Source of the DNA: Propioniciclava sp. MC1595
GTDB lineage: Bacteria; Actinomycetota; Actinomycetes; Propionibacteriales; Propionibacteriaceae
Assembly (NCBI RefSeq): GCF_017569205.1
Contig: NZ_CP071870.1
Coordinates: 1,860,001-1,924,000 of the forward strand
DNA length: 64,000 nt
Reading direction: 5' to 3'
In this document: piece by piece, positions 27,289 through 29,822 of the stretch
How the letters are laid out: each line of letters begins with the position of its first letter
Numbering within the stretch: the first letter of the stretch is position 1
Position numbers and translations under genes: made by a program
Notes under the pieces: generated by a model
Told to the model about the DNA's origin: nothing
What the model saw: the letters and a program-made list of their open reading frames with translations, nothing else
Databases searched by the model: none

Positions 27289-27495
27289 TCAGTAGCCCCG
27301 CAGCATCAGGTAGGCGAAGTAGCCGAAGGCGACCACCGCGACGAGGACCACGCTGAGGACCGTGATCGTCCACCAGCGCTGGTTGCGCTTGCTGCGCGTC
27401 GTGGGGACGTCCGCCGGCGCCCACTCACCGACCCGCGGCCGCACGCGCGGCGACGCGGAGCCGTTCAGGTCCAGGTCGGTGTTCAGTCCCTCCAC
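27289..27495 (-). CDS. Small single-helix membrane protein
   Basis: 68 residues: a polar N-terminal region with PRVRPRVGEWAPADVPTTRSK, then a Trp pair and one membrane helix (WTITVLSVVLVAVVAFGYFAYL split over residues 44-64), ending LRGY. N-in topology is suggested by the Arg/Lys cluster before the helix. I use GTG 27495; a CTG four codons later directly after GGAGG is a less likely alternative. No function can be assigned. It converges on the ACT protein gene with one base between them. Confidence 0.6.
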   Translation of the reverse strand: MEGLNTDLDLNGSASPRVRPRVGEWAPADVPTTRSKRNQRWWTITVLSVVLVAVVAFGYFAYLMLRGY

Positions 27496-27558
27496 GGCCC
27501 CCAGCGTACGCGTCTCACGATGCGGCGCACCGGTGTGCACGCGTGGGCCTGCGTCACC

Positions 27559-27564
27559 TACCCT
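27559..27564 (+). promoter_or_regulatory. -10 box of the leaderless polycysteine ORF
   Basis: TACCCT ends 6 bases before ATG 27571, the same geometry as the other leaderless candidates here. No ribosome site exists between box and ATG. Confidence 0.55.
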
Positions 27565-27570
27565 GCTCCC

Positions 27571-27648
27571 ATGGCCACGACCGCACGCACCCTCGCGCTG
27601 CCGTCGTTCACCGTGCCCGCGGGCTGTTGTCCGTGTTGTCGCGCCTGA
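27571..27648 (+). CDS. Polycysteine leader peptide (25 codons)
   Basis: A 25-codon ORF whose last seven residues are CCPCCRA: four cysteine codons (TGT, TGT, TGT, TGT) at positions 19, 20, 22 and 23, followed by Arg-Ala-stop. It begins at an ATG with a -10 box at leaderless spacing and no Shine-Dalgarno. The next gene, 75 bases downstream, encodes a NIL-domain protein. Leaderless polycysteine short ORFs of this kind are established in mycobacteria as cysteine-responsive attenuators of sulfur-metabolism genes; here the ribosome would pause on the Cys codons when Cys-tRNA is scarce. The peptide itself probably has no function. The alternative, chance clustering of cysteines, is unlikely in a genome this poor in TGT codons. 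Confidence 0.75.
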   Translation: MATTARTLALPSFTVPAGCCPCCRA

Positions 27649-27694
27649 CTCCCTGAAGCCCTTGGCTCGGGAGTCGCGCACCAGCACCCTCCCG
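27648..27694 (+). promoter_or_regulatory. Two mutually exclusive hairpins between the leader ORF and the NIL gene
   Basis: Hairpin A pairs ACTCCC (27648-27653) with GGGAGT (27669-27674), with an inner AGCC/GGCT stem; its left arm begins in the leader ORF stop codon. Hairpin B pairs CGGGAG (27668-27673) with CTCCCG (27689-27694). Both need the same GGGAG, so only one can form. A ribosome at the stop codon would block A and favour B. Neither has a T-run. Confidence 0.55.
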
Positions 27695-27723
27695 ACAACA
27701 CGCCAGATCCTCGGAGCACAGCC

Positions 27724-27954
27724 ATGACCCTCGACCTCGTCTTCGTCGGCGCCGACGCCGGCCGCGCCGCCCTCGCCCAGCTGACCGCCGAACTCGGCGT
27801 CACCGTCCGCCTGCTCGGGCAGCGGGTGACCACGATGGAGATCTTCCCCGTCAACGTCCTCACCATCGAGGTGGACGCCGCCGCCGCGCAGCTGGACGCC
27901 GCGGCGTCCTGGTTCGCCCGCCGCGGGATCCACCGCTTGCCCGTCGCCGCCTGA
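27724..27954 (+). CDS. NIL domain protein
   Basis: 76-residue stand-alone NIL domain, the ferredoxin-like fold named for its Asn-Ile-Leu motif, here seen as FPVNVLTIEVD (residues 42-52). NIL domains otherwise cap the methionine-import ATPase MetN, where they bind methionine as feedback signal, and also occur on iron-sulfur proteins. A link to sulfur amino acids fits the polycysteine leader upstream. GGAG lies 7 bases before ATG 27724. It is followed after 16 bases by the DUF5701 gene, perhaps in the same unit. Ligand and partner are unknown. Confidence 0.75.
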   Translation: MTLDLVFVGADAGRAALAQLTAELGVTVRLLGQRVTTMEIFPVNVLTIEVDAAAAQLDAAASWFARRGIHRLPVAA

Positions 27955-27970
27955 CGGGCACACTGGCCCG

Positions 27971-28576
27971 ATGAGCATGCGGGCGCAGGTCGAACGGTTG
28001 GTCGCGGCAGGGGTCCCGGACGTGGCGGGCGTCAGCGCCGACGAGTTCCGGGAGCTGGCCGCTGACCTGACCGGCGAGGGGGTGCTGTGCGTGCACCCCG
28101 AGCTCGCCGGACCCAGCCAACTGGCCCCGCTCCTGCGCCGCGGCGACCGCCCCGGCTTCGTGGTCGCGGACATGGACGACCTCGACGCCTTCGACCCCAT
28201 CGAGTCCGTGGTGGTCCCCGATCGTGCCCTCTACCTCGTGCACGGGGTCGACCGTGGGGACGACCTGCTCGGGTGGACCCCCGACCGGGCACTGCCCGAG
28301 ATCCTCGCCCGCGGCCGGAGCCCGCTGACGATCGGCGAGGGCATCAGCTGGCTCCTCCAGGCCCCAGAGGTGCTCGAACCCAACCGGTGCTTCATGTGCA
28401 TCGGCTCCCGCAAGCGCAAGGCCCGCGGGCTCGACGCCCGCACCCCGGCCATCTGGATCAGCCGCGGGACCGGGCGCGACGGCGCCGACCGGCGCGATGC
28501 CCCCAAGGTCGGGTGGTGCCGGGCCGGCAACCACCACACCTGGCTGGGCTTCGCGTCGGCCCTCAGCCGAAGCTGA
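27971..28576 (+). CDS. DUF5701 family protein
   Basis: 201 residues with the pattern I associate with DUF5701: a helical N-terminus with VSADEFRELAADL, a central YLVHGVDRGDDLLGWTP, then RCFMCIGSRKRKARGLD near residue 140 and the C-terminal APKVGWCRAGNHHTWLGFAS. It is soluble with no signal peptide. Biochemical role is unknown. A weak CACACT hexamer 6 bases before ATG 27971 could allow a leaderless start; otherwise it is read from the NIL gene. Its last 14 bases overlap the 3' end of the convergent DUF222 gene. Confidence 0.75.
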   Translation: MSMRAQVERLVAAGVPDVAGVSADEFRELAADLTGEGVLCVHPELAGPSQLAPLLRRGDRPGFVVADMDDLDAFDPIESVVVPDRALYLVHGVDRGDDLLGWTPDRALPEILARGRSPLTIGEGISWLLQAPEVLEPNRCFMCIGSRKRKARGLDARTPAIWISRGTGRDGADRRDAPKVGWCRAGNHHTWLGFASALSRS

Positions 28577-29822
28577 CGTCAGCGCCGCCGGCATTGGGCA
28601 CGTCCCCGCGCGGGTGCGTTCCCTGACGGTCGACCAGCCACTCGTAACCGAGACGGGTGACCCACGCGAGGATGCCGGGTGCGGTCTGGGTGAGCTCGAA
28701 GTCGCCGTGCGTCTTGGCCCGGTGGGCGAAGCGGCCCAGTGGGGCGAGGTTGGCTGCCCGCGTCTGCCCCCGGGTGCCGTCGTCGCGCCACGGGTCGCAG
28801 TGGTCGAGGTCGAGCCCCCGGGAACCGCGCACCGAGAACGGGAACATCTCGAACGGGTCCCGCGCCCGCACGTGCCGGCCGATGCCGACGGGCACCTCGT
28901 AGGCGTCGACCTGCGGGTGGTCGGCGAGGTCGACCACCGGCAGGACCCGGATCCGGTGGTGCTGGAGCAACTCGGCGAGGTGGGCCTTGAGCACCGGCCC
29001 GAGGTCGCCCTCGGTGCGCACGACCTCGCTGTCGGGGCTGAGGTGCACCACGACCGTCGCCTCGGGGCGACGCAGGGTGCCGGCGGCGTCGGATGCGGCG
29101 GTCGGCGTCGCGAGCCGGACCAGACCCTCCGCGCGCAGGACGTCGACCTGCTCGGTCGACCCCGCCGCGACCTCCTGTCGGACGTAGCCGTCCACCGCGG
29201 CCCCCAACAGCACGGCTCCCGCCGTGCGCAGCCGGGCCACCAGCGTGCTCATGCCGTCCCCGTCGTGGGTGACCCGCACGAACTGCTCACCCCGCGCCCG
29301 TTCGGCGCGCGCAGCGGCCGCCTCGGTGTCGGCCGCCACGATGAGCCCGGCGAGCTTGCGCAGGACGCGGCGCCAGGCGAGCCGGCCGAGGCAGGGCTCC
29401 ACGAGGCGGTCCACGCGGGCGGCGGCCGCCCGGTCGAGGTCGCGCATCCCCTTGGCCTGGGCAACCTGCAGGCCCTGCCAGAGTTCGACGCGACCTGCCA
29501 GCAGGGCCGCCCACGTGCGCGGCAGGCGGTGCCGCAGGTCGATCACGTCGGACACCAGCGCGGAGGCGGCCGGGATCGTCACGCCCAGCAGGGGCGCCAG
29601 TTCGGCGTACAGGAACTCGGCCACGAGCGGCGTGCCCTCGTGCCCCGACCGGACGAGCCGCTCGGCCCCGGGGGCCGGGTTCGACGCGACCGTGTCGTGC
29701 AGGTCGACCAACCCCGCCACCAGCAGGGCCTTCGTGGCGCCCAGCGAGCGCTCCAGCGACAGCACGCCGAGCAGCTCATCGGCCACCCGCCTGCTGTCGA
29801 TCGGCGCCGCGCTGGCGCTCAC
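28563..29822 (-). CDS. DUF222 protein with C-terminal HNH endonuclease-like motif
   Basis: 419 residues. Residues 10-290 are the helical DUF222 (13E12 repeat) region, and residues 330-385 form an HNH motif: LDLDHCDPW, then an Asn in AANLAPLGRFAHRAKTHG with the final His. DUF222-HNH genes are multicopy, repeat-like elements in many actinobacteria; nuclease activity is rarely tested. One Cys usual in the second half of the motif is replaced (LGRF). GTG 29822 is used, with GTG 29786 as an alternative; no clear ribosome site is seen. Both ends overlap neighbours: 14 bases with DUF5701 and the expected first helix of the membrane gene on the other strand, suggesting insertion. Confidence 0.8.
   Translation of the reverse strand: MSASAAPIDSRRVADELLGVLSLERSLGATKALLVAGLVDLHDTVASNPAPGAERLVRSGHEGTPLVAEFLYAELAPLLGVTIPAASALVSDVIDLRHRLPRTWAALLAGRVELWQGLQVAQAKGMRDLDRAAAARVDRLVEPCLGRLAWRRVLRKLAGLIVAADTEAAAARAERARGEQFVRVTHDGDGMSTLVARLRTAGAVLLGAAVDGYVRQEVAAGSTEQVDVLRAEGLVRLATPTAASDAAGTLRRPEATVVVHLSPDSEVVRTEGDLGPVLKAHLAELLQHHRIRVLPVVDLADHPQVDAYEVPVGIGRHVRARDPFEMFPFSVRGSRGLDLDHCDPWRDDGTRGQTRAANLAPLGRFAHRAKTHGDFELTQTAPGILAWVTRLGYEWLVDRQGTHPRGDVPNAGGADVSFG

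Follow-up and report, generated by a model that had tools for sequence, protein, structure and literature searches.

A conserved cysteine-run leader ORF, probably a translational attenuator, ahead of a stand-alone NIL-domain gene in Propionibacteriaceae

We describe a short, leaderless-type open reading frame ending in a run of cysteine codons that stands ahead of a small gene for a free-standing NIL domain in Propioniciclava sp. MC1595. Its conservation, its anatomy and its co-variation with the downstream ribosome-binding region make it very likely, in our judgement, that this leader is a cysteine-responsive translational attenuator of the NIL gene. Cysteine-run leaderless attenuators are already known as a kind from mycobacteria. 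New here are the NIL target, a leader that matches neither NCBIfam nor Pfam, the near-exclusive use of UGU for cysteine, and a methionine-plus-cysteine leader ahead of metQNI. On our comparative evidence, the sensing of cysteine by ribosomes would reach beyond mycobacteria into another actinobacterial family, and the small NIL protein family would be tied to sulfur-amino-acid shortage. A leader of this sort serves as a label, in that the gene behind it probably takes part in a cysteine response, and the role of NIL thereby becomes directly testable.

The locus lies on the plus strand of the 64,000-base window that was analysed, and its layout is as the first-pass annotation described it: a −10 hexamer 6 bases before an ATG, a 25-codon ORF, a 75-base gap and the NIL gene. 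The −10 element, TACCCT (27559-27564), is of the leaderless promoter type and is separated by GCTCCC from the ATG at 27571; it has no −35 match, and a search for a TTGACA/TATAAT-type pair found none. The leader ORF MATTARTLALPSFTVPAGCCPCCRA (27571-27648) closes with a TGA (27646-27648), and its peptide ends in CCPCCRA, with a Cys-Cys-Pro-Cys-Cys codon run (27625-27639) in which every Cys codon is TGT. The gap (27649-27723) contains the Shine-Dalgarno (SD) sequence of the NIL gene, GGAG (27713-27716, positions −11 to −8), and is followed by the gene itself (27724-27954), which encodes 76 aa belonging to PF09383.

From this arrangement we infer where the transcript starts, that ribosomes pause on the leader, that cysteine is the signal and in which direction the gene responds. 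The spacing of the −10 element would place the start of the RNA at or beside A27571, so that a ribosome would begin on the 5′-terminal AUG of the short ORF. With ample Cys-tRNA, this ribosome would cross UGU UGU CCG UGU UGU and exit at the stop, after which the end of the ORF would pair with the SD region of NIL and hold it closed. With scarce Cys-tRNA, it would stall on the Cys codons and cover the pairing partner, and the SD would open. The NIL protein would then be made under cysteine shortage, together with the products of the other genes in this genome that lie behind Cys-run leaders. To our knowledge, NIL does not belong to the recognised cysteine genes, and we count this against the attenuator reading.

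A profile search with the NIL protein found the family in 16 of 198 Propionibacteriaceae genomes, representing 4 of 29 genera. Two wider genome sets were draws from larger groups, with completeness of at least 80. At the level of the order, 14 of 391 genomes matched the profile at E ≤ 1e-5, every one of them within Propionibacteriaceae; at the level of the phylum, 396 genomes gave three matches at E ≤ 0.001, namely MC1595 itself and two weak ones (3.0e-4 and 8.5e-4). No strong match outside Propionibacteriaceae was seen among the genomes searched. Each of the 16 genomes with the gene has exactly one candidate leader arrangement ahead of it. The distance from TAnnnT to the ATG or GTG is 6 bases in 3 genomes and 7 in 13, the ORFs have 23-36 codons, and their stops lie 63-98 bases upstream of NIL. 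The motif CCxCC occurs in 14 of the leaders (as CCxCCC in G105, G106 and G110), the exceptions being CCRCR in G010 and CCRSCC in G109. The first-pass annotation had looked to relatives for a conserved Cys-run ORF upstream of NIL and had named loss of the run as evidence against its reading; the run is kept in every relative that carries the gene.

That the ORF is a chance product without any regulatory role is, in view of this conservation, barely credible. Short ORFs are abundant, but the occurrence of one in 16 of 16 genomes, with both the promoter spacing and the Cys run, already contradicts such an account, and ORFs so spaced are few: both strands of 139,006 bases of the MC1595 genome (the window plus six stretches picked for sulfur or PALP-family genes) hold only 4 that begin 6-7 bases downstream of TAnnnT and do not exceed 40 aa. 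Three of these 4 contain CC, namely those ahead of NIL, sulfite reductase and MetQ. The sequence TGYTGYNNNTGYTGY is present at 30 places in the genome, with a leaderless-type Cys-run ORF around the NIL leader only. The leader observation is real and goes beyond chance.

Searches with leader-derived patterns also returned matches elsewhere. We read none of the matches to TGTTGTCNGTGTTGTC beyond the NIL set, in five genomes, as a further NIL-type leader: two fall in the C-terminus of dnaK and in an apparent dnaA-dnaN spacer (genes named by reading), two have no in-frame start, and one falls within a reading frame 80 or more codons long. The pattern ACAACAN{15,45}CATN{6,7}ANNNTA, whose gap range excludes the MC1595 leader, proved uninformative over 96 genomes. 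Among the matches listed, a leaderless-type start, MASHFDVV, recurs in many genomes of one genus (family f2/genus g22, e.g., L093); it resembles lipoamide dehydrogenase.

Cysteine codon usage in the NIL leaders is the opposite of that in genes near the NIL locus of MC1595. Across the 16 leaders, TGT accounts for 60 of 66 Cys codons. In six genes near the locus, TGC outnumbers TGT by 21 to 1, and in SirA, MetQ, MetN and MetI combined by 8 to 1. For the other leaders of this genome, the TGT/TGC counts are 2/1 (sulfite reductase), 1/2 (MetQ) and 5/1 (sulfur transporter). The UGU bias may slow decoding or tune the pairing, and the difference from the mostly UGC-using neighbours is a clue to how the sensitivity of the leader is set.

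The same codon counts bear on whether the ORF instead encodes a functional Cys-rich micropeptide, e.g., one that binds metals or thiols and is expressed together with NIL. The Cys pairs are kept across the 16 leaders and an N-terminal TTAR-like stretch recurs, as one might expect of a working peptide. However, its length varies from 23 to 36 aa, much of the peptide outside the Cys run diverges between genera, and what is kept is codons and not amino acids alone; the pairing of the ORF with the NIL SD also co-varies, as set out below. We therefore regard a micropeptide as highly improbable.

The RNA structure that matters here links the ORF with the ribosome-binding region of NIL. The first-pass annotation had placed hairpins in the 75-base gap. 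Taken from the leader stop on (27646-27735), the sequence folds no better than expected by shuffling (z −0.42, with 70 of 200 shuffles as good), whereas stretches that include the 3′ part of the ORF fold better, with z −3.59 for 126 nt (0 of 200 shuffles as good) and z −2.34 for 146 nt (5 of 200). One predicted hairpin lies beside the leader stop, with arms GACUCCC/GGGAGUC lengthened by GCGC/GCGC (27647-27675). The region predicted to pair with the ribosome-binding region of NIL is 27613-27640 (by folds and by co-variation, p ~0.001). In the predicted fold of the MC1595 leader, bases just 5′ of the Cys codons pair with bases over the SD (GUGC.. with ..GCAC), and the Cys-codon region pairs with the sequence around GACAACAC (27694-27701), a complement of the leader Cys codons; within the ORF, it is GUGUUGUC (27633-27640) that is complementary to it. 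No Rfam family matched anywhere in the window at the gathering score.

We assessed co-variation without alignment, comparing by permutation the duplex energies of region pairs within one genome with those between lineages. The 16 genomes were reduced to 11 lineages, which we grouped ourselves, and nine region pairs were compared, with p values left uncorrected. The Cys run with 16 bases on either side fits the SD region of its own genome better than those of other lineages (p=0.0010 for 11 lineages, uncorrected, one of the nine pairs), and so does the region preceding the Cys codons (p=0.0019, uncorrected). The Cys codons and GACAACAC show no co-variation of their own (p=0.55), because the Cys codons are nearly invariant. 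Co-variation was likewise absent when the ORF tail was paired with mid-gap sequence (p=0.89) and in four control pairs (p=0.16-0.95). The signal between the Cys run and the SD held up: it had p<0.05 in 15 of 15 window choices and p=0.0004-0.0054 when any one of the 11 lineages was dropped. A sliding control peaked at the Cys run: p was 0.009-0.018 from −12 to +4 relative to the first Cys and 0.11-0.95 at the other positions.

When the first Cys codon occupied the A site of a modelled ribosome, the SD-AUG region became cheaper to open by a mean of 2.5 kcal/mol, and by more than 1 in 11 of 16 leaders; G110 showed no gain. The fall was greatest 1-5 codons before the first Cys (−3.0 to −3.5) and not on it. 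Between 9 and 16 codons upstream the mean change was −0.2 to +0.5, and between 7 and 10 codons downstream it was 0 to +0.5. Values scattered from −2.6 to +1.5 farther upstream, where few ORFs reach (n 1-4), and falls of −1.0 to −1.6 recurred 11-13 codons past the first Cys in the few longer ORFs (n 6-9). The equilibrium probability that the SD is unpaired barely shifted with a ribosome on the Cys codons, from a mean of 0.22 to 0.26, and was up in 11 of 16; we count this, and the position of the greatest fall, against the attenuator reading. The ORF is therefore predicted, from sequence, to pair with and hide the NIL SD, and the folding, co-variation and opening-cost results support translational attenuation, short of proof.

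Control at the level of transcription, with translation of the leader coupled to Rho-dependent or other termination in the 75-base gap, appears unlikely. Rho has been proposed for the cys leaders of mycobacteria and P. acnes in passages of Seliverstov et al. 2005 (PMC1262725), and the stem GACUCCC/GGGAGUC adjoining our leader stop does co-vary (p=0.0012, uncorrected). A search for an intrinsic terminator, however, gave 0 terminator-like sites in 27400-28650, and the co-variation of the Cys run peaks with the SD region, which points to translation.

The translational attenuation proposed for the NIL leader has close counterparts in the literature. Passages of PMC9031893 and PMC13236596, citing Canestrari et al. 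2020, describe leaderless polycysteine ORFs that act as attenuators responding to cysteine in M. smegmatis, and such short ORFs of mycobacteria are also treated in passages of PMC9094748. By the features that can be checked in sequence, the NIL leader resembles these: as in the passages cited, there is a leaderless-type Cys-run ORF, predicted to be able to pair with the SD, and a target that probably belongs with sulfur metabolism. Unlike the mycobacterial leaders as described there, it belongs to a Propionibacteriaceae host, its target is one small NIL gene, and it has no NCBIfam leader match. The NIL leader and the leaders of two relatives found no NCBIfam model at E up to 10, a range in which HMMER filters drop most matches above about 0.1, and the NIL leader has no Pfam match.

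Passages of PMC1262725 report candidate leaders with a Cys run for the cys operons of mycobacteria and P. acnes and for the cbs gene of B. longum. As far as those passages go, these leaders share with ours a Cys run and the lack of an evident intrinsic terminator, and one of them comes from a propionibacterium. They differ in their targets, cys operons and cbs. No NIL gene is mentioned in the passages, and those on cys leaders take up neither leaderless initiation nor pairing with the SD.

The target itself was identified as a NIL domain by its match to PF09383, which is modest but clears the Pfam cut-off (28.6 bits, cut-off 24) and which 13 of the 16 family members share at E ≤ 0.01. An AlphaFold model built from 16 sequences (mean pLDDT 88.5) matched 11 PDB chains at E ≤ 0.001, all of them MetN or the C-terminal/NIL domains of such ABC transporters, at 11-16% identity. 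The link of the NIL protein to MetN through sequence comparison is thin: a search of the PDB with its profile returned no chain of MetN at E ≤ 1, its similarity to the MetN of MC1595 was not significant (E 0.059), and NCBIfam models gave no match. It shares fold and Pfam family with the NIL (C2) domain of MetN, and differs in being free-standing at 76 aa and not fused. The NIL domain of MetN binds methionine and regulates its protein. A NIL domain does the same in an archaeal ferredoxin subunit, according to passages of PMC12068725. Among open-licence PMC papers, we found none on NIL domains with cysteine and actinobacteria, on stand-alone NIL domains, or on NIL domains with leader peptides.

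Further Cys-run leaders in the MC1595 genome precede sulfur genes. A leaderless-type Cys-run leader, MLNRMPKLVGRPHVDFARVRSSQCCRGC (L125, 6459-6545), precedes sulfite reductase and then two PAPS-reductase-family genes; it is weakly similar to NF042936, the Ms4527A family Cys-rich leader peptide (18.6 bits, cut-off 45), and to NF042934, a putative leader peptide (17 bits, cut-off 27). A second leaderless-type leader, MGQIISAANAVMMMPTCCRRMCA (L130, 4519-4590; genome 1472518-1472589), lies ahead of metQNI and matches nothing in NCBIfam or Pfam. It holds a Met run plus Cys codons, and could sense methionine as well as cysteine. A third, MTGHADARQPHTARLACGMCVAACPCCCRA (L128, minus strand from 9520), precedes a Sulf_transp-family gene and then a cysK-like gene; it ends in CPCCCRA and is not of the leaderless type, with AAGGA before its ATG and no TAnnnT at leaderless spacing. 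Given such leaders before sulfite reductase, metQNI and the sulfur-transporter/cysK genes, NIL probably joins a sulfur regulon.

We scanned for sister leaders at 16 of 18 MetQ and 24 of 25 sulfite-reductase places, with a filter (CC or CxC near the end, spacing 5-8) that single-Cys leaders escape. Among the 16 MetQ genes scanned, the 6 closest ones (E 1.2e-103 or better) have a leaderless CCRRM ORF ahead of them, in some cases without a Met run; ahead of the remaining 10, no leaderless Cys-run ORF was found. Sulfite reductase has a leaderless-type CC leader in 7 of the 24 places, including 6 of 8 within the genus (L155, with a leader, and L137, without one, are within these counts). Upstream of two of those 10 genes, both distant MetQ-like ones (L139/L144), short ORFs without leaderless promoter spacing end in MMRAGSFCCCG (G006) and MMQVSSRQCRCC (G010), i.e., in CCC and CRCC types, and are perhaps further Met/Cys leaders. 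The presence of NIL and that of sulfite reductase do not correlate cleanly, and we discarded the idea that NIL follows the reductase: G002 has the reductase without NIL, and G006, G012 and G013 have NIL without the reductase.

Since NIL domains elsewhere bind methionine, a methionine-binding regulator is a natural, if unproved, guess for the NIL protein. We tentatively suggest, as an idea with a modest chance of being right, that it is a cysteine-controlled regulator acting in trans, e.g., on MetNI or on a sulfur-assimilation enzyme. MetNI carries the same domain in fused form, and metQNI itself stands behind the Met-plus-Cys leader in this genome. If the suggestion is true, cysteine would be sensed by ribosome pausing and methionine by the NIL protein, giving a two-tier sulfur-amino-acid circuit, and the leader and NIL would travel between genome places as one module.

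Comparison of ten loci shows leader and NIL together in differing surroundings. Five of them have the pair flanked on one side by a gatC/ACT-domain/small membrane protein group and on the other by ligA, one has it beside ligA in another arrangement, and four have it away from these genes; five of six further loci that were inspected have other flanks where genes were readable. No neighbour common to the NIL loci was seen in the 15 of 16 loci inspected, two of which had flanks that gave little, and we rejected the idea that NIL is tied to one particular neighbour. The gene that follows NIL in MC1595 belongs to DUF5701 (PF18959, 271.7 bits). The first-pass annotation had the leader controlling a NIL/DUF5701 pair. 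Within the flanks compared, DUF5701 adjoins NIL in MC1595 only and at none of the nine other loci, so we reject it as part of the unit: the conserved unit is leader plus NIL, although DUF5701 may be co-transcribed with NIL in MC1595. The attenuator part of that annotation has fared better than the pair, having gained the leader in all 16 genomes, the ORF-SD co-variation and the sister leaders of sulfur genes. A DUF222 gene (window 28563-29822, minus strand; 26.6 bits, cut-off 24.4) lies with DUF5701 between NIL and ligA in MC1595; neither was found in the four relatives with the same neighbourhood, and the two genes are an apparent local insertion.
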